DNA of 64,000 nucleotides, taken from assembly GCF_017302985.1 (NCBI RefSeq), contig NZ_JAFIMU010000010.1, positions 372,001-436,000 on the forward strand, read 5' to 3'. A program made the translations under genes and the position numbers. This DNA comes from Corallococcus macrosporus (GTDB lineage: Bacteria > Myxococcota > Myxococcia > Myxococcales > Myxococcaceae). Of this stretch, positions 45,930 to 60,451 are shown piece after piece. How positions within the stretch are numbered: the stretch's first letter is position 1; every line of letters starts with the position of its first letter. The notes beneath the pieces are model-generated. The model had not been told where the DNA came from and ran no database searches. It worked only from the letters and a program-made list of their open reading frames with translations.

Positions 45930-47648
45930 TCAATCCTCTTCGCCCAGGTAGCGGAACACGGAGCGCAGGCCGATGCCCAGGGCCTTGGCCGCCTCCTTCT
46001 TGCTGCCGCCGCTGCGGGCAATGGCCTCGCGCACGTAGCGCAGCACGAAGGCATCACGCGCCTCGTCCAGGGGCACCAGCGGCGCCGTGTCCGCGGCCAG
46101 GTCCAGGTCCTCGACGCCAATGAGCTCCCCGGACGCGAGGATGACCGCGCGCCGCACCCGGGACACGAGCTCCCGGACGTTGCCCGGAAAGGGATGACCG
46201 CGCAGCGCCTCCGCCGCCTTCTGCGTGAAGCCCCTGGCCCGGGCCCCCTCCTGCTTCAGCACGTGGTGCGCGATGAGCAGCACGTCCTCACCGCGCTCCC
46301 GCAGCGGGGGCACCTCCACGCGCACTTCATCCAGGCGGAAGAGCAGGTCCTCACGGAAGGCACCCCGGGCGACGAGCGCCTTCAAGGGCTGGTGCGTGGC
46401 CGCGACGACGCGCATGTCGACCTTGCGCGGACGGTGCTCTCCCAGCCGCGTCACCTCGTGTTCCTGGACGACTCGCAGCAGGCGCGACTGGAGCGACAGC
46501 GGCATGTCTCCAATCTCATCCAGGAAGAGCGTGCCCCCATCCGACGCCTCCACCAGCCCCGCGCGGTCGGACGTCGCGCCGGAGAACGCCCCGCGAGCAT
46601 GACCGAACAGCTCGCGCTCGATGAGTGACTCCGGAAGCGCCGCGCAGTTGATGGCCACCAGCCGGCCGCGGCGGCCGCTCCGCCGGTGAAGCGCGCGCGC
46701 CACCTCCTCCTTGCCCGTGCCCGTCTCTCCCTGGATGAGCACGTGGAGCGACGTGGGCCCCAGGCGCTCCACCTGCCGGTAGAGGTTCCGCATCGCGGAG
46801 GATTCACCGATGAGCCCTTCGAACGTGGCCGCGGCGATGCGCTGCGTGAGGCTGTCCACCTGCTCCCGCAGCTCGGTCAGTTCGCGGGACGTGGCCAGCA
46901 GCAACGCCGCGAGCGAGGAGAGCGCCATCGCCTCCTCCAGCTCGCGAGGCGAGAACGGAGGGCTGCCCAGGCGCCGCCCCAGGTACACGGCACACAGGGG
47001 CGCGGAGGCCGCGCGCAAGGGCAGCACGAGCGCGGAGGTCAGCCTCAGGGCCAGGACACTGGGAGCCCCCGCGAGCGCCGCCTCCGCCGCGATGTCCGGC
47101 ACCAGCACCGGCGCCCCGGAGCCCACGACCTGATCCACCAGGCTGTCCACCACCACCGAAGCCGGCACGGAGCCGGTGGCCCCCAGCACCTGCCGCCGGT
47201 CGCCCTCCACCGACACGAGGAAGCCCACGTCCGCGGACGTCACGTCCGCGATGCCGCGCAGCGCGGCCTCCAGCAGCTCCGCCGCCGGACGCTGCACGAG
47301 CAGCCGCGAAGCAAAGTCCGTCAGCACGCCCAGGAGGCGCGAAGGCGTCGCGGAAGGCACCGGCGAGCCCCCGGAAGCCGTCAGCGTGAGCGACGCCTTG
47401 CCCAAGCTGAAAGACGCCCCCGGCTCCAGCGGCGACAGCTCCACCCGCTTGCCACCCACCCGGACGTCGCAGTCCGGGGCGGCGGCGGACACCGTCCACC
47501 CTCGCGCGTCCCGGAACAGCAGGGCATGGCTGCCCTTCACCCCGGGCGCGGAGAGGACGACGTCACACGCGGGCTCCGAGCCCACGGACACCACCGGCTT
47601 CTCCAGCGCGAAGGAGCGTCCGTCCGGGAGGGTCAGGAAGAAGCCCAC
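45930..47648 (-). CDS. Sigma-54-dependent activator, FHA-GAF-AAA+-Fis HTH
   Basis: 572 residues from GTG 47648. Residues 1-95 fit an FHA domain (VVSVGSEPACDVVL...VKGSHALLFRD), so input is probably a phosphothreonine partner. Residues ~105-265 fit GAF. The AAA+ domain has Walker A GETGTGKE, GAFSGA in place of the sigma-54-contacting GAFTGA loop, Walker B FLDEIGD and FREDLLFRL. The last ~35 residues are a Fis-type helix-turn-helix (SKKEAAKALGIGLRSVFRYL). It starts 4 nt after the carbonic anhydrase stop, so the operon probably runs SQR-like, carbonic anhydrase, activator. FHA-type activators are a known myxobacterial class often paired with Ser/Thr kinases, and one is encoded immediately downstream. 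Confidence 0.92.
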   Translation of the reverse strand: MGFFLTLPDGRSFALEKPVVSVGSEPACDVVLSAPGVKGSHALLFRDARGWTVSAAAPDCDVRVGGKRVELSPLEPGASFSLGKASLTLTASGGSPVPSATPSRLLGVLTDFASRLLVQRPAAELLEAALRGIADVTSADVGFLVSVEGDRRQVLGATGSVPASVVVDSLVDQVVGSGAPVLVPDIAAEAALAGAPSVLALRLTSALVLPLRAASAPLCAVYLGRRLGSPPFSPRELEEAMALSSLAALLLATSRELTELREQVDSLTQRIAAATFEGLIGESSAMRNLYRQVERLGPTSLHVLIQGETGTGKEEVARALHRRSGRRGRLVAINCAALPESLIERELFGHARGAFSGATSDRAGLVEASDGGTLFLDEIGDMPLSLQSRLLRVVQEHEVTRLGEHRPRKVDMRVVAATHQPLKALVARGAFREDLLFRLDEVRVEVPPLRERGEDVLLIAHHVLKQEGARARGFTQKAAEALRGHPFPGNVRELVSRVRRAVILASGELIGVEDLDLAADTAPLVPLDEARDAFVLRYVREAIARSGGSKKEAAKALGIGLRSVFRYLGEED

Positions 47649-48351: not shown

Positions 48352-49566
48352 TCAGGCACGCCCCCGCAGCATCCAGTCCCAGTACAGGCGCGGCAGCCCG
48401 TACTTCTTGAGCAGCCACAGGTCGCGCCGCTCCACCAGGGTGTTGATGAACGGGAGGCTCGGCGCGGGCTTGCCCTCGTAGTCGAACTCCGCGAGCAGCA
48501 TCCGGCCGTAGCCCGTCACCAGCGGACAGGACGCATAGCCGTCATAGCGCGCCGTGGGCTCGCGCCCCTCCATCACCGCGAGCAGGTTCTCCACGAGCAC
48601 CGGCGCCTCCGCCCGGACGGCCGCGCCGGTGCGGGACGTGGGCAGGTCGCTGGCATCCCCGATGGCGAACACGTCCGGGTGATCCGGATGTTGCAGCGTG
48701 TGCTTGTGCGCCTTGACCCAGCCCGCGTTCGGGCCGTCCTGATGGGCGAGTGCGCTGCGCTTGATGAAGTCCGGAGCGCTCTGCGGCGGCGTGACGTGGA
48801 GCAGGTCATAGCCCACCGTCACCCGCTCCCGGCGCCCCTCCCGCGTCACCGCGAAGACGGCCTCGCGGGAACCCGCGCGCACCTCCACCAGGTCGTGGCC
48901 GAAGTGCGTCTCGATGCCGTAGCGATCCACGACGCCCTCCAGCACCTTCGCGAAGGGCTGCACCGCGAAGAGCGCCTTGGCCCCCGAGCCGAAGACGACG
49001 CGCGACTTCCCGGCGAGCCCGCTGCGGCGCAGGTGATCCGCCACCAGGTACATGATCTTCTGCGGCGCCCCCGCGCACTTCACGGGCGTGGCCGGGTGGG
49101 TGAAGAGGGCCGTGCCGCCCTGGAACGCCCGCACCATCTCCCACGTCTTCGGCGCGAGCCGGAACTCGTAGTTGCTGGACACGTACGGAGTCTCCAGCGC
49201 GTCGCGCAGGCCGTGCACCCGGTCCCAGTCCAGTTGGATGCCGGGAGCGACCACCAGGAAGTCATAGGCCAGGCACTCCCCGCCCCGCGTGCGCACCTGC
49301 CGGGAGACGGGGTCCACCTCCTCCGCCCGGTCCTGGATCCACCGCGTCCCCTCCGGGATGTAGTCGGCTTGCGGCCGCACGGAGCTCGCGATGTCCGCGG
49401 CGCCAGCGCCCACCAGCGTCCACAGCGGCTGGTAGTAGTGCTTGTCCGAGGGCTCGAGGATGGCGACGTCGCGCACGCCCTTGCGCCGCAGGCGGGCCGC
49501 GACCGTGAGGCCCGCGCTACCGCCACCGATGATCAGCACCCGGTGGTGCCACGAGGGAGCGGTCAT
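48352..49566 (-). CDS. Sulfide:quinone oxidoreductase-like FAD flavoprotein
   Basis: 404 residues from ATG 49566; an upstream in-frame extension lacks homology. FAD-binding GGGSAGLTVAARL at 14-26 follows VLII. Features of the SQR family: HYYQPLWTLVGAG, AYDFLVVAPGIQLDWDRVHGL, the conserved Cys164 in PVKCAGAPQKIMYLV, VFAIGDASDLPTSRTGAAVRAEAPVL, and a late Cys in YASCPLVTGYGRMLLAEFDY. The C-terminus ends with amphipathic aromatic residues (LYWDWMLRG) suited to membrane binding. It probably oxidises sulfide to persulfide and reduces quinone. The divergent neighbour encodes an ETHE1-like persulfide dioxygenase, the classic next step. Confidence 0.88.
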   Translation of the reverse strand: MTAPSWHHRVLIIGGGSAGLTVAARLRRKGVRDVAILEPSDKHYYQPLWTLVGAGAADIASSVRPQADYIPEGTRWIQDRAEEVDPVSRQVRTRGGECLAYDFLVVAPGIQLDWDRVHGLRDALETPYVSSNYEFRLAPKTWEMVRAFQGGTALFTHPATPVKCAGAPQKIMYLVADHLRRSGLAGKSRVVFGSGAKALFAVQPFAKVLEGVVDRYGIETHFGHDLVEVRAGSREAVFAVTREGRRERVTVGYDLLHVTPPQSAPDFIKRSALAHQDGPNAGWVKAHKHTLQHPDHPDVFAIGDASDLPTSRTGAAVRAEAPVLVENLLAVMEGREPTARYDGYASCPLVTGYGRMLLAEFDYEGKPAPSLPFINTLVERRDLWLLKKYGLPRLYWDWMLRGRA

Positions 49567-49721
49567 GGACGGCCTCCGTATGAGCGGCGGGGAGCCTGCG
49601 TGCGCAGCTTCCCCAGGGCAACTGTGCCCCGAGGCGACTTCACGTTGAAAGCAGGACATCCCCTTTTCCTGGCCCCGGCTTCCGGAGCAGGATTCACGGG
49701 CCCGAACCCGGAGTCTCCGAC

Positions 49722-50423
49722 ATGCTCTTCCGCCAGCTCTTCGACTCCGAGTCGTCGACGTACACCTATCTCATCGGGGATGAGTCCACGCGGCAGGCCG
49801 TGCTCATCGACCCGGTGCTGGAGCAGGTGGACCGCGACCTGCGGGTGGTGTCCGAGCTGGGACTCGTCCTCACCCACGTCTTCGACACCCACGTGCACGC
49901 GGACCACGTCACCGCGTCCGGCGTGCTGCGCGAGCGCACGCGGTGCCAGGTGGTGGCCGGAACGGGAGGGGCCGACGCCGCCGACCTCCACGTGCGGCAT
50001 GGGGACACGGTGTACGTGGGCCAGTGCGCCTTCCAGGTGCTCGCCACGCCGGGCCACACGGACGACAGCGTGAGCTACCTGCTGGGCGACCGCGTCTTCA
50101 CCGGGGACACCCTGATGGTGCGGGGCAACGGCCGCACCGACTTCCAGAACGGCAGCGCCAGCCAGCTCTACGACTCCATCACCCGCGTCCTCTTCCAGCT
50201 CCCGGACGCGACGCTCGTCTATCCCGGGCACGACTACCACGGCCACACGGCGACGAGCATCGGCGAGGAGAAGCGGCACAACCCGCGCATCGCGGGACGG
50301 AGCCGCGAGGAGTTCATCCAGGTGATGAACGCCCTCAACCTGCCCCGCCCCAAGAAGATCGACATCGCCGTCCCGGCCAACCGCGCCTGTGGACGGACGG
50401 AGCCCCCGGCACCGGGGGCCTGA
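49722..50423 (+). CDS. ETHE1-like persulfide dioxygenase (metallo-beta-lactamase fold)
   Basis: 233 residues. The mononuclear iron site of the ETHE1/PDO group is visible in THVHADH (56-62), ATPGHTDDSVSYLL, FTGDTLMVRGNGRTDFQNG and VYPGHDYHG. The RTDFQ segment after GDTL and the DYHG motif distinguish this group from glyoxalase II. It oxidises glutathione persulfide to sulfite. It is transcribed divergently from the SQR-like gene across a 155-nt gap, and its 3' end lies 2 nt from the convergent glutathione peroxidase gene. Confidence 0.88.
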   Translation: MLFRQLFDSESSTYTYLIGDESTRQAVLIDPVLEQVDRDLRVVSELGLVLTHVFDTHVHADHVTASGVLRERTRCQVVAGTGGADAADLHVRHGDTVYVGQCAFQVLATPGHTDDSVSYLLGDRVFTGDTLMVRGNGRTDFQNGSASQLYDSITRVLFQLPDATLVYPGHDYHGHTATSIGEEKRHNPRIAGRSREEFIQVMNALNLPRPKKIDIAVPANRACGRTEPPAPGA

Positions 50424-50425
50424 CG

Positions 50426-50977
50426 TCAGGCCGGCTTCGCCAGCTCCGCGTCAATGGCCTGCAACAGCCGCGGATCCTCCGCCGTCACGTCCGGCGCGAA
50501 GCGGCCCGCGACGCGGCCATCCCGGCCGATGAGGAACTTCTCGAAGTTCCACTGCACCTCCGGCTGGGGGTTCGCCTCGATGCCGTAGCCCTTGAGGCTC
50601 GCGCGCATGGAGCCCTCGCCCGTGGCCACCGGGATGGCGCCCGTGAGCGCGTGGTAGAGCGGGTGCTTGTCCTGCCCCACCACGGAAATCTTCGAGTACA
50701 TCGGGAAGGTCACGTCGTACTTCAGCGTGCAGAACTGCTGGATCTCCGCCTCGCTGCCCGGCTCCTGCCCCAGGAAGTTGTTCGCGGGGAAGCCCAGCAC
50801 CTCCAGGCCCTGCGCCTGCTTGCTCGCGTAGAGCTTCTGCAGGCCTTCGTACTGGGGCGTCAGGCCGCACTTGGACGCGACGTTCACCACCAGCAGGACC
50901 TTGCCCTTGTGCTGACCGAGCGTCCGGGGGGCGCCGTCGATGCCTTTGAGGGGGATGTCGAAGAGGTTCTGGCTCAT
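50426..50977 (-). CDS. Glutathione peroxidase (Cys type)
   Basis: 183 residues, thioredoxin fold. Catalytic Cys37 in NVASKCGLTPQYEGLQKLY replaces selenocysteine; the partner Gln in FPANNFLGQEPG and Trp in VQWNFEKFLIG complete the usual tetrad. Reduces peroxides or lipid hydroperoxides using thioredoxin or glutathione. It overlaps no neighbour; the 267-nt gap upstream separates it from the divergent acyltransferase cluster. Confidence 0.94.
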   Translation of the reverse strand: MSQNLFDIPLKGIDGAPRTLGQHKGKVLLVVNVASKCGLTPQYEGLQKLYASKQAQGLEVLGFPANNFLGQEPGSEAEIQQFCTLKYDVTFPMYSKISVVGQDKHPLYHALTGAIPVATGEGSMRASLKGYGIEANPQPEVQWNFEKFLIGRDGRVAGRFAPDVTAEDPRLLQAIDAELAKPA

Positions 50978-51148
50978 GTTCTGCTCGGTCTCCGTTCGAG
51001 GGGGCGGCCACTCTAACGGGCCGGACGTGGGATGTCTTTCTTTGAGTCGTGACGCGCGCTACTCGCGGAGGAGGCTCGAGCCACGGCGGGATGTCTACCC
51101 CTGGCGCGCTTTACGCGATGTGCCGATCCAGGCGACTGTTCTGTTGCA

Positions 51149-51166
51149 GGCGAGACACATCTCGCC
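51149..51166. promoter_or_regulatory. Perfect inverted repeat upstream of the acyltransferase cluster
   Basis: Arms GGCGAGA and TCTCGCC with a 4-nt centre, about 80 nt upstream of the first gene of the 51245-57892 cluster, in the gap shared with the divergent glutathione peroxidase gene. It has no T-run, so it looks more like an operator than a terminator. Regulator unknown. Confidence 0.4.
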
Positions 51167-51244
51167 CCAATCCTTGAACACGTTTGCCATTGCGCCGGCG
51201 CCCGCCGCCAGCGGCAGCATTGCGAAAGCCAGAGGGGGAAGTCC

Positions 51245-51979
51245 GTGGCTGATACAGGTGGTGGCGCGTCCCGCGACGAGGAGCTCGCCTCCCGTCTCGC
51301 GGCGATGAGCGTCCTGGAGACGCGGATGGCCCGGCTCGGCGCGGGCCAGACGCCCGTGGTGATGGCAGGCCCCTTCTTCCATGCGACGACCCCCGCCGAG
51401 GTCGAACGCGTGCGCCAGTTCCGCGACGCCCAGTACCGGGCGCGGCTGAGCTACCTGCTGAGCCCCGAGCAGCTCCAACTGGACTGGCGGCTGGAGCTGG
51501 ACGAGCGCAGCGCGCACTTCCACGCCAGCCGCGACGGCCAGCTCGTGGGCAGCCTGCGCATCACGCCCGGCCCCTTCGAGTTCCAGGCGCTGGCCCCCTC
51601 CCTGGAAGGTGAAGCCCCCCGGTTCCAGGGCTACGCGGAGTTCAGCCGGCTGGTGGTGGATCCAGAGGCGCGCAGCCCCTCTGTCACGCCGCGCCTGCTC
51701 GTCGCGGCCTGCACCTGGGCGATGACGGAGGGCTACGTCGGCATCGTCGGCCTGTGCCGCCGGGCCGCGCGCACCGTGTTCGAGCGCTACGGGCTGGCCG
51801 CGGCCTCCGAGGAGCAGCACCGCGTGCCCATGCGGGGCCCCCAGCCCTACACGCTGATGGCGGGCACCTGGCCGCAGCTCATCGCCGCGAGCACCCGGAT
51901 GTCCGAACGACTCACCCGCCTCCGGCTGAATGACTCACCGGACGCCTATTCCCGCTTGGTTGAGGTGGAACAGACATGA
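51245..51979 (+). CDS. N-acyltransferase of the LuxI/FeeM-like GNAT group
   Basis: 244 residues from GTG 51245, preceded by GAGGGGGAAG. It has the arrangement of autoinducer synthases and N-acyl amino acid synthases: a conserved R/YR segment (VRQFRDAQYRARLSYL, residues 57-70), GQLVGSLRITPGP (98-110) and the signature E-x-S-R in YAEFSRLVVDP (130-140), then a GNAT second half ending in IVGLCRRAARTVFERYGL. LuxI enzymes use acyl-ACP and S-adenosylmethionine; FeeM uses acyl-ACP and an amino acid. Which of these applies cannot be told. Its stop overlaps the next gene by 4 nt. Confidence 0.72.
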   Translation: MADTGGGASRDEELASRLAAMSVLETRMARLGAGQTPVVMAGPFFHATTPAEVERVRQFRDAQYRARLSYLLSPEQLQLDWRLELDERSAHFHASRDGQLVGSLRITPGPFEFQALAPSLEGEAPRFQGYAEFSRLVVDPEARSPSVTPRLLVAACTWAMTEGYVGIVGLCRRAARTVFERYGLAAASEEQHRVPMRGPQPYTLMAGTWPQLIAASTRMSERLTRLRLNDSPDAYSRLVEVEQT

Positions 51980-52698
51980 CCGACACGACAAAGGCAGTCC
52001 CCGGCCTGGAGGCCCTGAAGCAGCGCCGCTCCCAGGTCTGGGACGAGCTCCTGGGCCAGTCCCGCTTCGTCCGCACCGTCCAGCAGGGCGAGGTCACCAA
52101 GGCGCTCTACGCGCTGTATCTGATTGAGACGTATCACTACACCCGTCACAACGCCCGCAACCAGGCGCTGGTGGGCGTGCGCTGTGAGGACGACCGGCAC
52201 TACCAGAAGTTCTGTTTCAACCACGCGGAGGAGGAGGTCGGCCACGAGCAGATGGCCCTGCACGACGTGGCCAGCATGGGGCTCCAGCCGGGGTTCCCCA
52301 TCCCGCGCGCCCTGCCGGCGACGGACGTCCTCATCGCGTACCTGTACTGGGTCTCCTACCAGGGCAATCCCTTGCAGCGCCTGGGGTACAGCTTCTGGGC
52401 GGAGAGCTGCTACGACTACATCCGGCCGCTCCTGGGCAAGGTCCAGAAGACGCTGGGGCTCACCCCGGCGCAGATGACCTTCTTCGTCGCGCACTCGGAC
52501 ATCGACGCGGAGCACTCGCAGGCGGTCGACGAGATGATCGCCAAGAAGTGCAAGACGCCCGAGGACTGGGAGGACGTGGCCCAGGTGATGGAGACCAGCC
52601 TCCGGCTGACCTGGCGCATGATGGACGAGGTGGCGGACGCCTACGCCCAGCTCATCGATGGGCGCAGCGAGCGGGCCGCCTTCCTCAAGGCGCTGTGA
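51976..52698 (+). CDS. Heme-oxygenase-like diiron oxidase (iron-containing redox enzyme family)
   Basis: 240 residues, all helical. Candidate metal ligands follow the HDO pattern: Glu51 in LYLIETYHYTRHN, Glu86 and His90 in NHAEEEVGHEQM, then His173, Asp175/177 and His180 in VAHSDIDAEHSQ. Family members (for example UndA, BesC, SznF) use O2 and a labile diiron centre for desaturation, C-C cleavage or N-oxygenation of amino or fatty acids. Coupled to the preceding acyltransferase gene by ATGA, it probably acts on the same molecule. TenA-like proteins share the fold but lack the carboxylate ligands seen here. Confidence 0.76.
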   Translation: MTDTTKAVPGLEALKQRRSQVWDELLGQSRFVRTVQQGEVTKALYALYLIETYHYTRHNARNQALVGVRCEDDRHYQKFCFNHAEEEVGHEQMALHDVASMGLQPGFPIPRALPATDVLIAYLYWVSYQGNPLQRLGYSFWAESCYDYIRPLLGKVQKTLGLTPAQMTFFVAHSDIDAEHSQAVDEMIAKKCKTPEDWEDVAQVMETSLRLTWRMMDEVADAYAQLIDGRSERAAFLKAL

Positions 52699-52708
52699 GC
52701 CCCAAGCC

Positions 52709-53788
52709 ATGGCACGCGCCTACTTCAGCCACCTGAACTATTCGCTCGGCGACGAGGACTCCAGCGTCGAGCTGCACGCCCTCCCGGCGGACGCCCGGCA
52801 CGTGGTGGCCGTCGCCGGCAGCGGCGGGCGCGTGGTGCCGCTCCTCGCCCGAGCGCCCCGGAAGCTGACGTGCGTGGACATCTCCGACACGCAGCTCGCG
52901 CTTACCGAGCTGCGCATCGCCGCGCTCCGCCAGTTGAACCACGCGGAGTACCTGGGGCTCCTGGGCTACGAGGACATGTCCATCCAGCGCCGGCTGGAAC
53001 TCCTCGCCACCCTGCCCCTGTCAGGCACGGCGCGGACAGCCCTGGACCCCGTGTGGAAGGCGGTCCAGGCCGGCGAGCGCATCGTCTACCTGGGCCGCTT
53101 CGAGGGGATGTTGCGCACGCTGTCGCGCTTCGTCGGGCTGTTCACCGGCCAGCGCGGCCGGAAGATGTTCGACCAGCCGGACGTCGCGGGGCAGCGCGCC
53201 TGGTTGGACACGGGCTTCCCCAAGGCGGCGTGGAAGCTGGTTCTCCTCTTGATGGGCAACTCCGCGGTGCTCAACTCGCTGCTCTACCGGGGGGACTTCC
53301 CGAAGAAGAACCTCCCGGGCAGCGCGTTCCGCATTTACTGGGACATCTTCGACCGGCTCTTCCGCACGCTGCCGGCGCGCTCCAGCTTCTTCCTCCAGCT
53401 CGTGTTCTTCGGAGAGCTCCGCTACCCGGAGGGCTATCCCATCGAGTGCGACGCGGACGTCTTCCTTGCGGCGCAGCAGGCCGCGCGCAAGAGCGGCATC
53501 ACGTACGTCCGGGGCGACATCATCCAGCACGTCCAGGAGCAGCGGGACGTGGACTTCGTGTCGCTCTCCGACGTGCCCTCATTCCTCCCGCCGGACCGCG
53601 AGCGCGACTTCCTGAACGCGATGAAGCCCGGCCTCACGCCGGACGCCCTGGTCGTCACGCGGGGGCACCTGCGCGTCGCCGCACCGGAGGTCCAGGGCTA
53701 CGAGGCCGTCTCCGACCGCTACCAGGACGCCATCGCCCAGGAGCGCACGCAGCTCTGGCGGATCCACTTCTATCAACGACGTTCTTGA
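52709..53788 (+). CDS. DUF3419-family protein, BtaA-like SAM-dependent transferase
   Basis: 359 residues from ATG 52709, 10 nt after the preceding stop. The N-terminal part has a SAM-binding motif I-like stretch (HVVAVAGSGGRVVPLLARAPRKLTCVDISDTQLALTELRIAALRQL). It continues with LGYEDM and a long helical part, and ends with FVSLSDVPSFLPP and TRGHLRV. This matches DUF3419, which includes BtaA, the enzyme that moves the 3-amino-3-carboxypropyl group of SAM to diacylglycerol for betaine lipids. No BtaB methyltransferase gene is near, so another acceptor or an unmethylated homoserine lipid is possible. Confidence 0.76.
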   Translation: MARAYFSHLNYSLGDEDSSVELHALPADARHVVAVAGSGGRVVPLLARAPRKLTCVDISDTQLALTELRIAALRQLNHAEYLGLLGYEDMSIQRRLELLATLPLSGTARTALDPVWKAVQAGERIVYLGRFEGMLRTLSRFVGLFTGQRGRKMFDQPDVAGQRAWLDTGFPKAAWKLVLLLMGNSAVLNSLLYRGDFPKKNLPGSAFRIYWDIFDRLFRTLPARSSFFLQLVFFGELRYPEGYPIECDADVFLAAQQAARKSGITYVRGDIIQHVQEQRDVDFVSLSDVPSFLPPDRERDFLNAMKPGLTPDALVVTRGHLRVAAPEVQGYEAVSDRYQDAIAQERTQLWRIHFYQRRS

Positions 53789-53801
53789 GGAGCGCCGTCC
53801 C

Positions 53802-54686
53802 ATGCATGCCGTGAAGCTGACGAAGACGTTCGACCCCCAGGCGCTGGAGGCGGCCTACCACGCCGTCCGCCGCCACGTGGAGGCCCTGCCCGCGGGCTAT
53901 CCCGGCGAAGGCCATCAGGGGTGGACCTCCATCTGTCTGCACTCCGCCACGTCGGGAGCCTCGCCCGTGCTGGAGCAGGCCCCCTATCTGCGCGACCTGC
54001 TCTCCGGCCTGGGCTTGAAGCTGCGGCTGGCGCGCCTGCTGCGCCTGGAGCCCGGCGGCGTCATCCGCGAGCACTCGGACGCGTTCCTCTCCAAGCGCAT
54101 CGTCCGGCTGCACATCCCCGTGGTCACCCACCCGGACGTGGAGTTCTTCGTGGGCGGCCAGCGGTGCGTCTGGAGCGCGGGAGAGTTCTGGTACGGCGAC
54201 TTCTCGCTGCCGCACCACGGCGTCAACAAGAGCGCCGTGGCCCGCATCCACCTCGTCCTGGACGTCACGGCGGACGACGCGCTGTTGCACCTCTTCCCAC
54301 CGCAGCAGGTCCCGCCGTCGCTCCAGGCGATGGGGAGTGAAGCCGCGGAAGCGGAGCTGGATCCACGCGTGGTGGAGCGCTTCGCCTTCGACTTCACCCT
54401 CCCCCAGGGCTTCACGCTGCCCGGCACGGGCCTCGCGCCGCTGCCGTCCGAGGCCCGGGGCGGCATGCGCATGGTGGACAACGAGCTGTGCATCTTCGTC
54501 AACGAGCAGCCGATGCTGAAGGCCGTTCCGGTGTCGGAGGACACGGTGGACCTGCTCGGCATGGGGCCGGAGGCGCGCCTGCGCTACACGTTCCGGGGCG
54601 AAGCAGTGCGGGATGTGACGCTCACCGTGGGCACGACCCCGGTGTACTCGTTCGACGTGCGCCATGGCTCCGGTCAGGCTCATTGA
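53802..54686 (+). CDS. Aspartyl/asparaginyl beta-hydroxylase-like 2-oxoglutarate oxygenase
   Basis: 294 residues. The family's iron site is visible: His91-x-Asp93 in IREHSDAFLSKRIVRLHIPV, and the distal His139 with Arg148 in LPHHGVNKSAVARIHLVLDV; the AspH family often uses a two-histidine site, so Asp93 may or may not bind. The last ~110 residues (FDFTLPQGFTLPGTG...VYSFDVRH) form an extra beta-rich domain of unknown role. Bacterial members hydroxylate Asp, Asn or lipid-linked chains (LpxO is a distant relative). It overlaps the next gene by 23 nt. Confidence 0.82.
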   Translation: MHAVKLTKTFDPQALEAAYHAVRRHVEALPAGYPGEGHQGWTSICLHSATSGASPVLEQAPYLRDLLSGLGLKLRLARLLRLEPGGVIREHSDAFLSKRIVRLHIPVVTHPDVEFFVGGQRCVWSAGEFWYGDFSLPHHGVNKSAVARIHLVLDVTADDALLHLFPPQQVPPSLQAMGSEAAEAELDPRVVERFAFDFTLPQGFTLPGTGLAPLPSEARGGMRMVDNELCIFVNEQPMLKAVPVSEDTVDLLGMGPEARLRYTFRGEAVRDVTLTVGTTPVYSFDVRHGSGQAH

Positions 54687-55794
54687 GCACGCCCCTCCGT
54701 CCACGGAGGGCAGCGACAGCGCGAGGCTGGCGTCGAAGCTCGTCGGCCACTACGTCGAGCGCGGCACCACGCCCTTCATCGGGAACACCCGCCACCGCGT
54801 CCTCCTGGCGGACGTGGATGGCGAGGTGACGCCGCTCATCGTCAACGACGGCGCGGACAGCGACTGCTACCTGACGTCGCCGTTCATCAACTACATCACC
54901 TACGCGGAGGAGTTCGTGGACTCCGTGAAGGAGCCCGGCACGCGCAGGGCGCTCCTCGCGTTCATCCGCGCCGTGCGGGCCGTCATCCGCCCAGCGCACC
55001 TGGACCGGGTCGTCTACGTGAACCACTGGATGGTGGCCACGGGACCGGCGCTGCGCTTCACACCGGAACAACTGGAGAGGCTGACGCAGGCGCTGCGCGA
55101 GCGCTTCCCGAAGCACGCCTTCGTCTTCAAGCGGGCCACCGCGGAGACGGCGGAGGCGGTGGCCCGCGAGCGTCCGGGCGCGGGGCTGCAAGCCATCTTC
55201 AACCGGCAGATGTACGTGTGGCGGCACGAGGAAGGAAAGAAGCCGCCCCGCGAGTTCCGGCAGGACCGCAACCTGCTGAACCAGCACCGCGCGAACCTGC
55301 GCCGGCTCACGGCGGCCGACCCGGGCGTCATCGACCGGCTGCGCGAGCTGTACCGGGCGCTCTACATCGACAAGTACTCCGACCATAACGCCTTCTTCAC
55401 GGAGGCCTGGTTCGAGGAGGTGTTCCGGCAGGGGCTGCTGGAGGTCTACGGCATCGAGGTGGAGGGCCGCCTCGCCTACTTCGTCACCTGCTTCGTCGCG
55501 GGCGGGGAGCTGATTGGCTCCGTGGTGGGCCACGACCCGGTGCTGTCGCGCAAGCACGGCCTGTATCGAGCGGGAATGAGCCACCTGATGCAGCTGGCGG
55601 AACAGCGAGGCCTGCCACTCAACCTCAGCTCCGGCTCCGGGCAGTTCAAGCAGAAGCGAGGGGCCACGCCGCTGACCGAGTACGAACTGCTCTGCTTCTC
55701 TCACCTGCCCTGGCGTGCAAGGCTGTCCTGGTCGTTGCTCCGACGCATCTACAACGAGGTCGGCCCCAGGGTGTTCTCCGCCCTGAGCATCTGA
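54664..55794 (+). CDS. GNAT/FemAB-like N-acyltransferase
   Basis: 376 residues. The N-terminal half (HRVLLADVDGEVTPLIVNDGADSDCYLTSPFINYITY) and C-terminal half (YGIEVEGRLAYFVTCFVAGGELIGSVVGHDPVLSRKHGLYRAGMSHLMQLAEQRGLPLNLSSGSGQFKQKRGA) fit the tandem GNAT fold of FemAB or Acetyltransf_6 proteins. The final G-x-x-x-FK-x-x-RGA motif is typical where the second acetyl-CoA or aminoacyl site closes. The start overlaps the hydroxylase gene by 23 nt, implying coupled translation. Probably adds an acyl or aminoacyl group to the cluster's product. Confidence 0.74.
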   Translation: MAPVRLIEHAPPSTEGSDSARLASKLVGHYVERGTTPFIGNTRHRVLLADVDGEVTPLIVNDGADSDCYLTSPFINYITYAEEFVDSVKEPGTRRALLAFIRAVRAVIRPAHLDRVVYVNHWMVATGPALRFTPEQLERLTQALRERFPKHAFVFKRATAETAEAVARERPGAGLQAIFNRQMYVWRHEEGKKPPREFRQDRNLLNQHRANLRRLTAADPGVIDRLRELYRALYIDKYSDHNAFFTEAWFEEVFRQGLLEVYGIEVEGRLAYFVTCFVAGGELIGSVVGHDPVLSRKHGLYRAGMSHLMQLAEQRGLPLNLSSGSGQFKQKRGATPLTEYELLCFSHLPWRARLSWSLLRRIYNEVGPRVFSALSI

Positions 55795-55814
55795 CCGCCC
55801 TCGTCGAGGACCGC

Positions 55815-56450
55815 ATGCTCTACACGCCCCGCACCTTCCAGGAGTCGGACCTCCCCACGCTGCACGCGTTCATGCGGCAGCACAGCTTCGCCACGGTCAT
55901 CTCGCACGGCTCCAGCACCCACGTCTCGCACGTGCCGCTGCTGCTGGTGCCTGGCCGGGGCGGCAAGGGCACGCTGCTGGGGCACCTCGCACGCGCCAAT
56001 CCGCACTGGAAGGACTTCGACGGCGAGCGGCCGGTGACCTGCGTCTTCCATGGTCCCCACGCCTACATCTCACCCACCTGGTACAAGATCCGGCCCTCGG
56101 TGCCGACCTGGAACTACGCGGTGGTGCACGCGCTCGGACGGCCCCGGATCATCGACACACCGGCGGAGCTGTCCAAGCTGATCGACGCGACGATCGCGGA
56201 GTACGAGCCCGCCATCGGAGTCCCCGGCCACGACACCCGCCTGTCCGAGGAGCAGCACGCGCGGATGCTGGAGCAGATCGTCGGCTTCGAGCTGCCCATC
56301 GAGGAGCTCCAGGGCAAGTTCAAGCTGGGCCAGAACCGCTCGGCGGAAGACCAGGCGGGAATGATGGAAGCGCTGGCGAGCCAGGGCGGCGAAGCGCTGG
56401 CCCTGGTCGAGCTGATGCGCGAGCGGTCCCGCGCGCGCGAAAAACCCTGA
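55815..56450 (+). CDS. PaiB-like FMN-binding protein
   Basis: 211 residues with the split-barrel flavin fold of PaiB ('FMN-binding negative transcriptional regulator'): SDLPTLHAFMRQHSFATVISH, HVPLLL, LLGHLARANPHWKDF, GPHAYISPTWYKI, VPTWNYAVVHA and KFKLGQNRS are all family landmarks. PaiB was named as a regulator in Bacillus, but the domain has no DNA-binding motif and may be a flavin-dependent reductase or oxidase. It lies 20 nt after the GNAT gene in the same operon. It could supply a redox step or act independently. Confidence 0.86.
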   Translation: MLYTPRTFQESDLPTLHAFMRQHSFATVISHGSSTHVSHVPLLLVPGRGGKGTLLGHLARANPHWKDFDGERPVTCVFHGPHAYISPTWYKIRPSVPTWNYAVVHALGRPRIIDTPAELSKLIDATIAEYEPAIGVPGHDTRLSEEQHARMLEQIVGFELPIEELQGKFKLGQNRSAEDQAGMMEALASQGGEALALVELMRERSRAREKP

Positions 56451-56479
56451 CGCAGTTCCCTCTCCGGAGGCCCCCGCAC

Positions 56480-57892
56480 ATGACACGGCAGCGAGTCCTC
56501 ACCCCTTCCGAACCGCTGAAGCGGACGTGGGCGCTGAGCGCCGTGGACGTCGCGCTCAAGGACATGTTCGTGAGCTTCGCGGCGGTCTTCAGCGGGCGCA
56601 TCGACACCGAGCGCTTCACCCAAGCGCTCCGAGCGACGCTGATCCGCTACCCGTTCTTCCACGGCACGCTGAGACAGCAGGACGACGCGGTACTCGTCCT
56701 CTGCCACCACCCGTCCCGCCCCGGGGTGCGTGAGGGCATGAGCGCCGTCGGCCTGGACCTGGACGAAATCGACGCGCCCTTTCCCACGGGAGACCGGAGG
56801 GTCCTCTACTCCGGGGACTTCGTCTCGCGGCTGGCGCCCGGGAAGCCACCGGCCCACGACGGGCGCCGTCCCCTGCTGCACCTGAAGCTCACGCACTTTC
56901 GCGATGCCTCCGTGGTGGGCCTGAGCTGGAACCACGCGCTGACGGACCTGCACGGCATCTACGACTTCCTGCGCGCGGTGTCTGTCGCCTACACCGACCC
57001 GGGCCACGAGCCAGGAGAACCGCCCGTCTTCGATCGGCGTGACATCTGGAGGCACCTGGGCGAGCCGGGTGAAGCAACCGGAGCCCAGCCCTCCAGGGAG
57101 GGCCGTCACGGCATCGTCCACATCTCGCGGGCGAAGGCGACACTGGGCATCGCTCGTTACCTGAAGCAGGCCGTGACGGATGCCGTGCCTGTGTGCCTCT
57201 TCATGGACGAGGACGGCGTCGACACCATCAAGGCCCAGGCGCAGGCCGCGGGCACCAAGGTGTCCACCAACGACGTGGTCAACGCGACGCTGCTGAAGTT
57301 CTTCGGCGAGTGCACCCGCGAGCAGCACGCCCCACCCGAAGTGGGCTTGTACTTTCCCATCGACGTCCGAGAGCTGCTGGGAGCACCGTCAGGCTCCGTG
57401 GCCAACTGCCTGGGCAATGCCTCCGCGATGCTGAGGCGCGCGGACCTCTGGAGTTCCAGCGTCACGGAGCTGGCCCTCCGCAACCGGGCCGTGGTGTCTG
57501 CCTATGGCCGGGAGCAACTGCGCGAGGACCTGCACTGGGCGGACTACTGGCGCCGCAACACGAGCCAGGGGAGCGTGTATCACCACTGGCTGCTGGGGCA
57601 GGACCGCGTCTACTGCTCGAACTGGACCAGCCAGGAGCTGGCGCGCGTGCGCTTCGACGATGCGGCCTTCGTCACGCTGCTGCGAAGCTCCCAGCTCAAC
57701 AAGTGGCTGCTGCTGCCAGCCTTTCACAGCACGGTCCTGCCGCGCATGGAGGGCGGCCGGATGAAGCAGGTGGTGCGGGTGAGCGTCCGGCGGGAGCACT
57801 TCCGGACGCTGGCGCGGCACCTGCGCGAATGGCCCCACGTGCAGGAGGCCATCCGTCTGGACACCGGAGAACGGCTCAGGGCCGCGGCGTAA
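56480..57892 (+). CDS. BAHD-like acyltransferase (condensation-domain superfamily)
   Basis: 470 residues. The catalytic HxxxD motif is His152-Ala-Leu-Thr-Asp156 in GLSWNHALTDLHGIYDFLRAV, at the place expected for the BAHD/transferase family. The second half (STNDVVNATLLKFFGECTR, YFPIDVRELLGAP...VANCLGNASAML) matches the family's channel region, and CSNWTSQEL occupies the place of the structural DFGWG motif. BAHD enzymes esterify or amidate alcohols and amines with acyl-CoA. It overlaps the convergent FemAB-like gene by 17 nt and is the last plus-strand gene of the cluster. Confidence 0.8.
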   Translation: MTRQRVLTPSEPLKRTWALSAVDVALKDMFVSFAAVFSGRIDTERFTQALRATLIRYPFFHGTLRQQDDAVLVLCHHPSRPGVREGMSAVGLDLDEIDAPFPTGDRRVLYSGDFVSRLAPGKPPAHDGRRPLLHLKLTHFRDASVVGLSWNHALTDLHGIYDFLRAVSVAYTDPGHEPGEPPVFDRRDIWRHLGEPGEATGAQPSREGRHGIVHISRAKATLGIARYLKQAVTDAVPVCLFMDEDGVDTIKAQAQAAGTKVSTNDVVNATLLKFFGECTREQHAPPEVGLYFPIDVRELLGAPSGSVANCLGNASAMLRRADLWSSSVTELALRNRAVVSAYGREQLREDLHWADYWRRNTSQGSVYHHWLLGQDRVYCSNWTSQELARVRFDDAAFVTLLRSSQLNKWLLLPAFHSTVLPRMEGGRMKQVVRVSVRREHFRTLARHLREWPHVQEAIRLDTGERLRAAA

Positions 57893-59093
57893 TTGGCTGC
57901 TCCGCCAGTGCCGGGTCCTGGAACACGGGAACGTCCTCCTTGAAGACGTTGCGTTCCACCGGAGGGGGCGGCTTCATCAGGTTCTGGGTGAGCCAGCCCA
58001 GGCCCTGACGCTGCAGGGCGGACCGGTGCCAGATCCAGGCCGACACATGGACGGGCTGGGCACCGACGCTCATCTTCGGCCCGGCCGTGGTCATCCCCAT
58101 GTTGACCGCCTTGCAGCCGTGCTCGATGCCGTAGCGGACGACCTCGTACAGCAGCCGGAAGTAGACCCCCTCCTCCAGGGCCGCCTCGCGGGAGAACCCG
58201 GTGCAGGAGAACCGGAGCATGGGGCCGTCGACGAACAGCAGCCCGAACCCGGCGATGCTGTCATCAGGCCGGCGCAGCAGCATCACCTTCGCCTCGGGCA
58301 TGTCGCTGGCGGAGGCGAAGAAGCCCTCGGTGAGGACCAGCCGCCGGTACTGGGTGGCGCGGTCGTAGAGAGTCCGCCACAGCGCGGTCAGCTGGGGCGC
58401 AAGCTCCGCGAACTGCTCCACGACCTCGACGCGAAGCGAAGCCGTCTCCTTCATGCAACCCGCGAGTCGCCCCCGGTAGCGGGCCCGCATGTGGGCCTTG
58501 TATTCATTGAACGAGGTGAACGGCAGCGGAACGACGAACGCCGCAGGGAGCGGCGAGGGCACGAAGCCCATCCGGCGGAGCACTTCCACGGCACAGGGAG
58601 CGGCCGTCGGCTCGATGTCCCGGATGACGACCAGCGAGGCACGCTGACGGTCCGCCTCCGCTTGCGCCCAGCGCGCCAGGGTCGTGATGGCTTCCGTGCT
58701 GGACAGCGACGAGCGCACCGGGAACCCCACTCCCGCCGGGTTGCCCACTTCGATGACGCCGTACTTCAGGAAGCGAGGCGCCGCGCCGCGCACCAGGTGG
58801 ACGGCCTGCTGGATCCGCTCATTGCCCAGGTCCGCCCCGTCGATGGTGTTGCGATAGGTGGCGGCAACGCCCACGGGCTGCCCGCGTCCGTCGCTCAGCG
58901 TGACGGGGACCTGATGGAACCCGTCCATCTGGATGTGCTGGGCGCACTTCAGGAACCGCTGGCTGAGGTTGAAGTGTCCGTCGGGAACCCAGCAATCCCA
59001 ATCACGCGCGCCCCCGTCCTTCCAGAACGCCCCACCGGCTTCCCGGACCGTCACTTCGACGGATGAAAGCCTCTCAGCACTGCTACCGCGCAT
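57876..59093 (-). CDS. GNAT/FemAB-like (DUF482-type) N-acyltransferase
   Basis: 405 residues from ATG 59093, with GGAGG 6 nt upstream; an upstream in-frame ATG is less likely. The protein has two GNAT-like halves. The second (YKAHMRARYRGRLAGCMKETASLRVEVV, LYDRATQYRRLVLTEGFFASASDMP, ALEEGVYFRLLYEVVRYGIEHGCKAVNMGMTTAGPKMSVGAQP) closely follows the FemAB/DUF482 pattern. Although on the opposite strand, it converges with overlap on the BAHD-like gene and is a second FemAB-type protein in the same cluster, so it probably belongs to the same pathway. Confidence 0.75.
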   Translation of the reverse strand: MRGSSAERLSSVEVTVREAGGAFWKDGGARDWDCWVPDGHFNLSQRFLKCAQHIQMDGFHQVPVTLSDGRGQPVGVAATYRNTIDGADLGNERIQQAVHLVRGAAPRFLKYGVIEVGNPAGVGFPVRSSLSSTEAITTLARWAQAEADRQRASLVVIRDIEPTAAPCAVEVLRRMGFVPSPLPAAFVVPLPFTSFNEYKAHMRARYRGRLAGCMKETASLRVEVVEQFAELAPQLTALWRTLYDRATQYRRLVLTEGFFASASDMPEAKVMLLRRPDDSIAGFGLLFVDGPMLRFSCTGFSREAALEEGVYFRLLYEVVRYGIEHGCKAVNMGMTTAGPKMSVGAQPVHVSAWIWHRSALQRQGLGWLTQNLMKPPPPVERNVFKEDVPVFQDPALAEQPITPRP

Positions 59094-59236
59094 GTCATTC
59101 CTCCGCGGACATCGGAGGCGGAACAGTGCCTTGACGCCCCATGACACGGGAAGGCTCCGGCGGGTTGCCGGAGGTCTGTCACAAAACCCAACCGTGTTCT
59201 CAAGGCAATGTCAGAGGCTCCTCGCAGGATGCCGCC

Positions 59237-60451
59237 GTGTCTCACTCATCTCCGGTGTCGTCTCAAGAGCGCGTCGAATTGGTGGATGCCCTGCGCGGCT
59301 TCGCGCTGTGCGGTGTCTTCGTCTCGAACAGCTTCCTCTGGTTCGGAGGCCGCAACCTGCTGCCCCCCGAACAGCTCCGGGCCCTGGGCTCACCGCTGCC
59401 CGAGCTGGTGACCGGAGCCCTCTTCCTGTTCTTCGTGGCGCACAAGTTCCTCAACCTCTTCGGCTTCCTCTTCGGGCTGGGCTTCTCCATCCAGTTGTCG
59501 CGAACGGAGGCGCGCGGTGCCTCGCACGTCCCCGTCCATCTGCGGCGGATGGGGGTGCTGTTCTGCATCGGAGCGGTGCACCTGCTGGCGCTCTGGATGG
59601 GAGACATCCTCCACCTGTATGCGCTGGCGGGTCTCCTGCTGCTGCTCTTCGCCGGGAAGACGGACCGGACACTGTGGCGCTGGGTGGTGGTGTTGCTGGG
59701 AGTGATGCCGCCCCTGGTGCTCGCGCTCCAACTCTGGGGGCCGGAAGTCACGGCGCATGCCCCTGAATCAGCGCTGCGGGCCGAGCTGTTGGCAGCGCTC
59801 TCCAGTGGCTCCGTGTGGACAGCGCAGGCGGGCAACGCCCGCTACGTCTGGGAGACCTGGTTCAGCTCCCCTCGCGTGCTCATCTGGCTCACGCTCATCC
59901 TGGGCCGCTTCCTGCTGGGCCTGCTGGCGGGGCGTCACCGGCTGTTGCAGGACGTGGAACGCCACCGTCCCCTGCTCCGCCGGATGCTGTGGTGGGGGCT
60001 GTGCGTGGGAGGACTGCTCAACGCAGGAGGACTGCTGGCGTTCCAGCTGCGAGCCCAAGGCCTGGATCCGGCGAGCCACACCGGGCTGTTCCTCCTGACT
60101 GCGTTCCAGGAGCTTGGATACGCGTCCCTGGGAGCAGCGTACCTCGCCGGCTTCGCGCTGCTCTTCCAGCGTGAGCGCTGGCGCCGGGCGCTGGGGGTGC
60201 TGTCCCCCGTGGGCCGCATGGCGCTGACGAACTACCTGATGCAGACGGTGCTGAGCCTGTGGCTCTACAACGGCTGGGGCCTGGGGCTCATCGGCCGCGT
60301 GCCACCGTCACACTGTGTCGGCATCGCGCTGGTTCTGTTCGCGGTGCAGGTGCTGCTCAGCCACGCATGGCTGAAACACTTCCGCTTCGGTCCCGCGGAG
60401 TGGCTGTGGCGGTCACTCACCTACGGCCGCCTCCAGCCCCTGCGCGGATGA
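59237..60451 (+). CDS. DUF418-family integral membrane protein
   Basis: 404 residues from GTG 59237 (SHSSPVSSQERVELVDALRGFALCGVFVSN, the usual DUF418 beginning); an in-frame ATG at 59141 adds 32 unrelated residues. About eight to ten hydrophobic segments are visible, including LFLFFVAHKFLNLFGFLFGLGFSIQL and MGVLFCIGAVHLLALW. It ends with the family signature FRFGPAEWLWRSLTYGRLQP. The family (YeiB-like) has no established function, though related acyltransferase-3 proteins acylate envelope molecules. Confidence 0.88.
   Translation: MSHSSPVSSQERVELVDALRGFALCGVFVSNSFLWFGGRNLLPPEQLRALGSPLPELVTGALFLFFVAHKFLNLFGFLFGLGFSIQLSRTEARGASHVPVHLRRMGVLFCIGAVHLLALWMGDILHLYALAGLLLLLFAGKTDRTLWRWVVVLLGVMPPLVLALQLWGPEVTAHAPESALRAELLAALSSGSVWTAQAGNARYVWETWFSSPRVLIWLTLILGRFLLGLLAGRHRLLQDVERHRPLLRRMLWWGLCVGGLLNAGGLLAFQLRAQGLDPASHTGLFLLTAFQELGYASLGAAYLAGFALLFQRERWRRALGVLSPVGRMALTNYLMQTVLSLWLYNGWGLGLIGRVPPSHCVGIALVLFAVQVLLSHAWLKHFRFGPAEWLWRSLTYGRLQPLRG

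Follow-up and report, generated by a model that had tools for sequence, protein, structure and literature searches.

A cluster of eight genes (A-H) at positions 51245-59147 of a 64,000-nucleotide stretch of Corallococcus macrosporus DNA (hereafter the window), taken from the 9.8 Mb genome of this soil predatory bacterium, may direct the synthesis of an N-acylated, methionine-derived small molecule, a reading of this co-inherited set to which we give an even chance. Two results carry it: sequence comparison gives solid grounds for regarding the cluster, as A-G or A-H, as inherited as a unit within Corallococcus, and its first three genes, encoding a FeeM-like acyltransferase, a heme-oxygenase-like dimetal oxidase (HDO) and a DUF3419 protein, form a core that, judged by homology, recurs in unrelated bacteria. 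The kinds of enzyme are known, whereas no description of the FeeM-HDO-DUF3419 pathway core was found in open-access full text.

Gene organisation and inheritance within Corallococcus

The cluster comprises seven open reading frames (ORFs) on the forward strand, A-G, and the convergent ORF H, with a largest gap of 29 nt (between F and G) and a 17-nt tail-to-tail overlap of G and H; the ORF list thus agrees with the tight arrangement, overlaps or small gaps plus one overlapping convergent gene, reported by the first-pass annotation. The features are as follows (SAM, S-adenosylmethionine; 2OG, 2-oxoglutarate; FMN, flavin mononucleotide):

51021-51244 (+), upstream DNA retained alongside the cluster, probably its promoter side (by DNA identity with sister genomes)
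51245-51979 (+), A, FeeM/LuxI-like GNAT acyltransferase (Pfam PF21926)
51976-52698 (+), B, HDO (PF14518)
52709-53788 (+), C, DUF3419 (BtaA-like) class I SAM enzyme (PF11899; longest ORF from 52658)
53802-54686 (+), D, AspH-superfamily Fe(II)/2OG hydroxylase, proline-hydroxylase-like (PF05118)
54664-55794 (+), E, FemAB/GNAT-like acyl- or aminoacyltransferase (PF13480)
55815-56450 (+), F, PaiB-type FMN split-barrel protein (PF04299)
56480-57892 (+), G, BAHD/condensation-like acyltransferase (PF02458)
57876-59147 (-), H, second FemAB/GNAT-like transferase (PF13480, just under the cut-off)
59141-60451 (+), DUF418 membrane protein (PF04235), candidate extra member of the block, its start overlapping that of H

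Every family named earlier was found by Pfam, with two corrections: A passes the FeeM but not the LuxI cut-off, and H falls just below its own. Because several DUF3419 homologues begin at a residue matching window position 52709, C probably starts there, 10 nt past the stop of B, rather than at 52658.

The genes are not scattered among relatives. A-H are syntenic in six of the 16 Corallococcus genomes (G000, G002, G003, G007, G010 and G011), A-G alone occur in two more (G001 and G015, the latter with its set split over two contigs), and the cluster is absent from the other eight; the DUF3419 gene and a close HDO are found in the same 8/16 genomes. Protein identity to the window is 74-98% for A-H in five more genomes and 57-80% for A-G in two more. 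The ratio of nonsynonymous to synonymous substitution (dN/dS) lies at 0.09-0.50 in comparisons of A-G with three genomes and of H and the DUF418 gene with two. Orthologues of H (89-100% identity) are present in 6/16 genomes, other matches being at most 25% identical, and DUF418 orthologues (85-100%) are confined to the same six genomes, those with A-H, further copies being at most 60% identical; the DUF418 neighbour is therefore listed as a candidate extra member inherited with the cluster, although the copy in G002 is cut by a contig end and has one stop in its stretch. Co-inheritance of the set, as A-G or A-H, holds within the genus, while conservation of the full set as a unit more widely was rejected, since only the FeeM-HDO-DUF3419 core recurs widely.

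The DNA just upstream of A is also shared with sister genomes, with identities of 86% (G011) and 91% (G002) over about 224 bp and 73-74% (G007, G010) over about 245 bp, and no match of at least 80 bp with G003. Upstream of 51021 the sister loci have no adjoining match to the window, although G002, G007, G010 and G011 still match each other; position 51021 appears to mark a rearrangement at the left-hand edge of the block.

Distribution of the FeeM-HDO-DUF3419 core

A DUF3419-alignment scan of 84,980 species genomes returned seven Corallococcus loci and an eighth in Trinickia fusca; it used two peptide patterns, and the distribution of the core is a lower bound. Further searches found Trinickia and G537 among 398 genomes of Trinickia's family, Deefgea piscis and two weak Shinella matches among 72,556 plasmids, and DUF3419 matches in 15 of 195 genomes of the window's phylum (eight Corallococcus, G143 and six distant ones). 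Gene orders at the loci outside the main Corallococcus set, in which SpeD denotes S-adenosylmethionine decarboxylase, are:

C. exercitus, second cluster (L022): FemAB-SpeD-FeeM-HDO-DUF3419-FemAB
Trinickia (L034): SpeD-FeeM-HDO-DUF3419-flavin split barrel, followed by a serine hydrolase (these last two named by Pfam)
G537 (L067): gene order as in Trinickia, except that the serine hydrolase is encoded on the opposite strand
Deefgea plasmid (L103): FeeM-HDO-DUF3419-SpeD-monooxygenase-like gene-serine hydrolase
G143, another myxobacterium: AspH-HDO-DUF3419-PaiB, with no FeeM match

Across the window type, the mini/Trinickia/G537 group, Deefgea and G143, HDO identity is 49-58% and DUF3419 identity 45-58%, compared with 69-84% and 40-68%, respectively, inside the mini/Trinickia/G537 group. 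FeeM, where present, is 24-32% identical between the window type, that group and Deefgea, below both HDO and DUF3419, so A evolves fastest. Kinship with A was detected by tblastn at L022 (E 2e-10), L034 (7e-15) and L067 (5e-11), and by profile in Deefgea (E 3e-31). HDO and DUF3419 identities covary (Spearman 0.85 over 36 pairs among nine modules, the pairs not being independent). The identity matrix includes only four of the eight window-type Corallococcus sets; the G011 locus (L017) was left out of all alignments as a near copy, that of G002 (L016) out of the 14- and 18-row HDO and 7-row DUF3419 sets, and G015, whose cluster lies on two contigs, contributed neither its HDO nor its A to any of them. 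Profiles were built before the Deefgea locus was found.

Control loci lacked these partners. No FeeM, DUF3419 or AspH profile match was found at any of 19 distant myxobacterial HDO loci (flanks of up to about 1.5 kb), nor by tblastn at two loci with 19.5 kb (L026 and L027). Distant DUF3419 genes, at seven sites spread over six genomes, likewise had no partners by the same profiles within 9-12.5 kb.

Core enzymes A and B

Protein A reaches 31.9 bits against Pfam FeeM (cut-off 27) and 21.3 bits against the LuxI model Autoind_synth PF00765 (cut-off 24). Foldseek searches with its AlphaFold2 model (pLDDT 81) gave their top E-values to general GNATs, the acyl-homoserine lactone (AHL) synthase MesI ranking 15th, FeeM (2g0b) 28th (TMq 0.57) and RpaI 44th (TMq 0.57). 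An AHL synthase was dropped as an assignment, A lying below the LuxI cut-off and resembling such synthases in fold only; the protein would instead catalyse N-acyl transfer from acyl-acyl carrier protein (acyl-ACP). In G003 gene A (L018, 10796-11524) is 74% identical to the window copy, its neighbours being 87-96% identical, and a change in acyl or amine specificity, or gene replacement, is possible there.

Protein B matches Haem_oxygenas_2 (PF14518) at 81.7 bits, and its putative ligands E87, H90, E143, H173, D177 and H180 are invariant in all 18 rows of the HDO alignment, corresponding by sequence to the six-residue 3-His/3-carboxylate (3H/3C) motif that passages of PMC11611611 and PMC13185094 place on three core helices. 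The set is of the same kind as those described there for AetD and for MboA, the mangotoxin acetylenase (PMC13185094), with which B shares E-x-x-H, E143 and H-x3-D. No acidic residue occurs at 55-63 in the 18 rows, the place of the auxiliary helix being judged from spacing rather than structure. Given the six conserved ligands and this lack of an acidic residue, B fits the 3H/3C class, in which, according to source passages, the substrate itself binds Fe1. Its closest solved relative is 3dde (phmmer E 5.3e-77), a heme-oxygenase-fold PDB protein of unknown function belonging to the same HDO subfamily, and its nearest characterised relative by profile is MboA (E 2e-10). In the passages on MboA, its substrate is a tripeptide made by ATP-grasp ligases and its partner a flavin/Fe2S2 reductase, whereas the partners of B are FeeM-like and DUF3419 proteins.

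DUF3419 protein C and its proposed donor

Protein C matches PF11899 at 84.6 bits (cut-off 28.2), and its model (pLDDT 80.5, 11 sequences) predicts a class I methyltransferase fold with a helical insert; the protein is a putative 3-amino-3-carboxypropyl transferase. BtaA is the 3-amino-3-carboxypropyl transferase of betaine-lipid synthesis, and C shares its Pfam family and class I SAM fold; unlike BtaA, C has no BtaB partner in the cluster, is linked to an HDO and FeeM, and has a sister clade with SpeD and an altered motif I. Plain betaine-lipid synthesis was rejected, there being no BtaB in the cluster.

Four DUF3419 genes adjoin SpeD (L022, L034, L067 and L103). Their proteins read ADCGSR at motif I, whereas the eight SpeD-less rows (seven Corallococcus and G143) read AGSGGR, so that Asp replaces Gly at residue 39 of the SAM-binding motif. 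Distant DUF3419 proteins show other sequences at motif I; that of G127 keeps the Gly, and no Asp was seen there in the other printed alignments. Four of the 11 fixed differences between SpeD-linked and SpeD-less proteins fall within residues 39-44 (hypergeometric 7e-6 over 359 columns, a rough guide because the six columns were picked after looking). The motif I loop of class I enzymes binds the methionine end of SAM; Asp39 would repel a carboxylate there and suit the bare amine of decarboxylated SAM. The AspH-like gene accompanies SpeD-less clusters only and is absent from the four SpeD-linked loci. The window enzyme would accordingly transfer the aminocarboxypropyl group of SAM, and its SpeD-linked relatives the aminopropyl group of decarboxylated SAM.

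Accessory proteins

Protein D matches Asp_Arg_Hydrox (PF05118) at 60.4 bits (cut-off 22.6), and its residues H91, D93, H138 and R148, which we take to be the metal and 2OG residues, are invariant in eight of eight rows. By profile its best PDB match is L-proline cis-4-hydroxylase 4p7w (E 4.5e-9), followed by 'Beta-hydroxylase' 7v4f (0.001), the proline oxidase 1e5r (0.0012) and 7v4p (0.0083). The earlier label of an AspH-like hydroxylase therefore stands for the superfamily and can be refined, in that the best solved match is a free-amino-acid (proline) hydroxylase; two L-proline hydroxylases, 4p7w and 1e5r, rank first and third among solved matches, though D is linked to DUF3419 and HDO genes. 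Proteins E and H match Acetyltransf_6 (PF13480) at 29.8 and 21.6 bits, respectively, against a cut-off of 22. Protein F matches FMN_bind_2/PaiB (PF04299) at 172 bits and may supply electrons or carry out a flavin oxidation step; its counterparts are a PaiB-type protein in G143, a different flavin split-barrel protein (PF12900) in Trinickia and a homologue of the latter in G537. Protein G matches Transferase (BAHD, PF02458) at 37.3 bits and, far under its cut-off, the NCBIfam PapA5-like model (3.1e-6).

Proposed pathway and points against it

In the proposed pathway A would move an acyl chain from acyl-ACP onto an amine, B would use O2 and two irons on an amino-acid-like intermediate, most likely for desaturation or oxidative decarboxylation, and C would add the 3-amino-3-carboxypropyl group of SAM. 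D would then hydroxylate the amino-acid part, F would supply electrons or a further redox step, and E, G and H would add more acyl or aminoacyl groups. In the SpeD clusters decarboxylated SAM would take the place of SAM, with the DUF3419 protein handing over an aminopropyl group, and D would be absent because it would need the carboxylate. Also conceivable is a LuxI-like variant in which acylation of the SAM or decarboxylated-SAM amine by A precedes transfer of the acylated arm by C. Only tentatively, and with distinctly less confidence than for the small-molecule reading itself, we propose that the core represents a bacterial pathway of a new class, with DUF3419 enzymes giving a methionine-derived C4 unit (from SAM) or C3 unit (from decarboxylated SAM) to an acylated, HDO-oxidised scaffold, one clade having switched donor through the motif I Gly-to-Asp change and the capture of SpeD.

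Several observations weigh against this picture. We infer product, intermediates and activities from family membership and linkage alone; Foldseek found no match to the model of C at E <= 0.001, and a sigma-70 scan found no forward promoter. The SpeD-linked DUF3419 proteins form one clade (support 99/99), so the correlations between SpeD, Asp39 and AspH amount to one evolutionary event. SpeD also occurs outside the window cluster in 16/16 Corallococcus genomes searched, so decarboxylated SAM may reach the window cluster too. The Trinickia core has a different 2OG-oxygenase-like gene, named by eye, some 2 kb away on the opposite strand (L034, 5220-5993, -), so the lack of AspH need not mean a lack of hydroxylation there. 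At L022 and L034 the FeeM-like proteins have no Pfam match, and the Deefgea one scores under the FeeM cut-off. On the 18-row HDO tree, DUF3419 linkage requires two changes, and a single branch separates the linked rows from the rest in 20% of bootstrap replicates; the HDO-DUF3419 pairing may thus have arisen once or more than once.

The FeeM profile missed FeeM-like neighbours that Pfam found at L070 and L106; the 0/19 control can therefore be relied on for DUF3419 and AspH, but less so for FeeM, of which remote kin may be present. FeeM-like/HDO pairs without DUF3419 occur in Agarilytica, G685 and, weakly, Pseudomonas syringae, so the steps may follow another order and A may act on another substrate; these pairs suggest that A and B may act together, with C as an added step. 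The Agarilytica and G685 proteins match Pfam FeeM but not the profile of this analysis, and the P. syringae GNAT has no FeeM Pfam match and an E of 7e-4 with the FeeM profile. HDOs 33-44% identical (G066, G127, G628 and a second Trinickia locus) keep other partners, namely BAHD-like and polyketide synthase (PKS) genes, ketoacyl-synthase-III-like plus GH3-like genes (twice) and a weak FeeM-profile match (E 1.6e-5), and on plasmids of P. syringae and P. coronafaciens the HDO is paired with anthranilate-synthase and ligase genes.

Alternative explanations

The best-surviving alternative, which we consider rather unlikely, makes the HDO an N-oxygenase whose N-hydroxy product A acylates to a hydroxamate or similar metal ligand, DUF3419 then extending a metallophore-like scaffold. 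Siderophore pathways commonly acylate N-hydroxy-amines with a GNAT enzyme, and the recurrence of the FeeM-like/HDO pair without DUF3419 would suit such a route, as would the existence of HDO N-oxygenases (SznF, RohS, FlcE and HrmI, in the passages available). However, the Pfam matches of the eight proteins include no siderophore transporter (the search being confined to these proteins, not their surroundings), and the nearest characterised profile match of B, MboA, is a desaturase. The extra auxiliary glutamate of the SznF/RohS type was not seen at the place judged from spacing, a point made indecisive by HrmI, which those passages give as 3H/3C.

Unlikely, too, is a membrane lipid of homoserine- or betaine-like kind or a signal of the acyl-homoserine type, with C alkylating a lipid alcohol as BtaA does and A acting like LuxI. 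C belongs to DUF3419, the family of BtaA, A shares the fold of AHL synthases, and several acyltransferases are present; yet A lies under the LuxI and over the FeeM cut-off, and a patchy spread over 8/16 genomes of the genus is unlike that of a structural membrane lipid. No BtaB-like N-methyltransferase appears among the Pfam matches of the eight proteins (weak methyltransferase-domain matches of C apart, and the rest of the genome not searched). The homoserine lipid or signal put forward by the first-pass annotation has no direct support, and those matches contain neither a LuxR-type receptor nor a betaine-lipid N-methyltransferase.

Quite improbable is a route through azetidine-2-carboxylate, which C would form by cyclisation of SAM (or azetidine, from decarboxylated SAM); D would hydroxylate that small cyclic amino acid before it is acylated. 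Some SAM enzymes do form azetidine-2-carboxylate, D has a proline hydroxylase as its best solved match, and the HDO PolF forms azetidines, according to source passages; but no kinship of C to azetidine synthases was found, none being recognised among the fold matches shown, which could still hide one.

A chance assembly of unrelated accessory genes on a genomic island, suggested by a left flank that varies between genomes and a block missing from half the genus, is very improbable and largely refuted for the core, given a core order that Trinickia, G537 and Deefgea, at about 50% identity, have in common with Corallococcus, the tight overlaps, the purifying selection and the negative HDO and DUF3419 controls, while for D-H the case against it rests on Corallococcus conservation plus, for D and F, G143.

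Relation to known pathways

The fee clusters are FeeM/N-acyl amino acid synthase pathways. The stieleriacine cluster (BGC0002080, PMC7293339) likewise has an N-acyl amino acid synthase heading a small-molecule cluster, and stieleriacines, as N-acyl dehydrotyrosine derivatives, combine acylation and oxidation (PMC7293339). Its substrate is tyrosine, however, and the passages of that paper drawn on here name no HDO, DUF3419, SpeD or AspH; in its main text, 'oxygenase' and 'iron-containing' have no word-start occurrences. PMC13108848 and PMC11363339 were further sources. Searches of open-access full text found no description of the combination, consistent with the earlier statement that no characterised pathway has this set. 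DUF3419 is named in four papers of that open-access text, whose titles concern algae, the betaine lipids of plants and a smut fungus, and for decarboxylated SAM in natural products nothing relevant was found, judged from titles and the starts of abstracts.

Other HDO clusters and surroundings of the locus

On conjugative plasmids of P. syringae and P. coronafaciens (L104, L105), a conserved, operon-like set comprises a LuxR regulator, anthranilate synthase I/II, a phenylacetate-CoA-ligase-like protein, a GNAT, an HDO, a flavodoxin, an EamA exporter and an alpha/beta hydrolase, the HDO being matched by 23 Pseudomonas plasmid records. At L060 (G127) and L069 (G628) an HDO lies beside a ketoacyl-synthase-III-like gene and a GH3-like adenylating gene, both named by eye; G127 belongs to the window's phylum and G628 to Trinickia's class, and the pair represents another HDO cluster. 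In G685 (L070, 7457-9321) the HDO is followed by a FeeM-like acyltransferase fused to a cyclic-nucleotide-binding domain.

Within the window, a giant nonribosomal peptide synthetase-polyketide synthase (NRPS-PKS) ORF of 10,897 aa (8970-41663, +) contains condensation, adenylation, ketosynthase and luciferase-like monooxygenase domains (first 8,000 aa scanned). The cluster was rejected as part of it, the NRPS-PKS ending 9.6 kb away with a sigma-54 activator and a metallo-beta-lactamase-like gene among the genes between. The activator (45930-47648, -) has FHA and GAF domains, and in G010 and G011 DNA about 2 kb before the start of the cluster matches part of it at 68-69%, perhaps through a shared common domain only. 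Three genes of the left flank are:

48352-49659, SQR-like, by eye only
49722-50423, metallo-beta-lactamase-like
50426-50977, GPx-like, by eye only

These were not counted as members because none has a listed tblastn match in the fetched sister loci, which cover 0.9 to 5.2 kb upstream of A.

Implications

The SpeD/motif I pattern yields a sharp and cheap prediction on donor choice in DUF3419 enzymes, and the compact operon on the Deefgea plasmid offers a ready target for reconstitution. HDOs keep giving new chemistry, with nitriles, alkynes and azetidines among the products in the sources drawn on, and the 3dde subfamily, solved but unexplained in function, would gain a pathway context common to myxobacteria and Betaproteobacteria.

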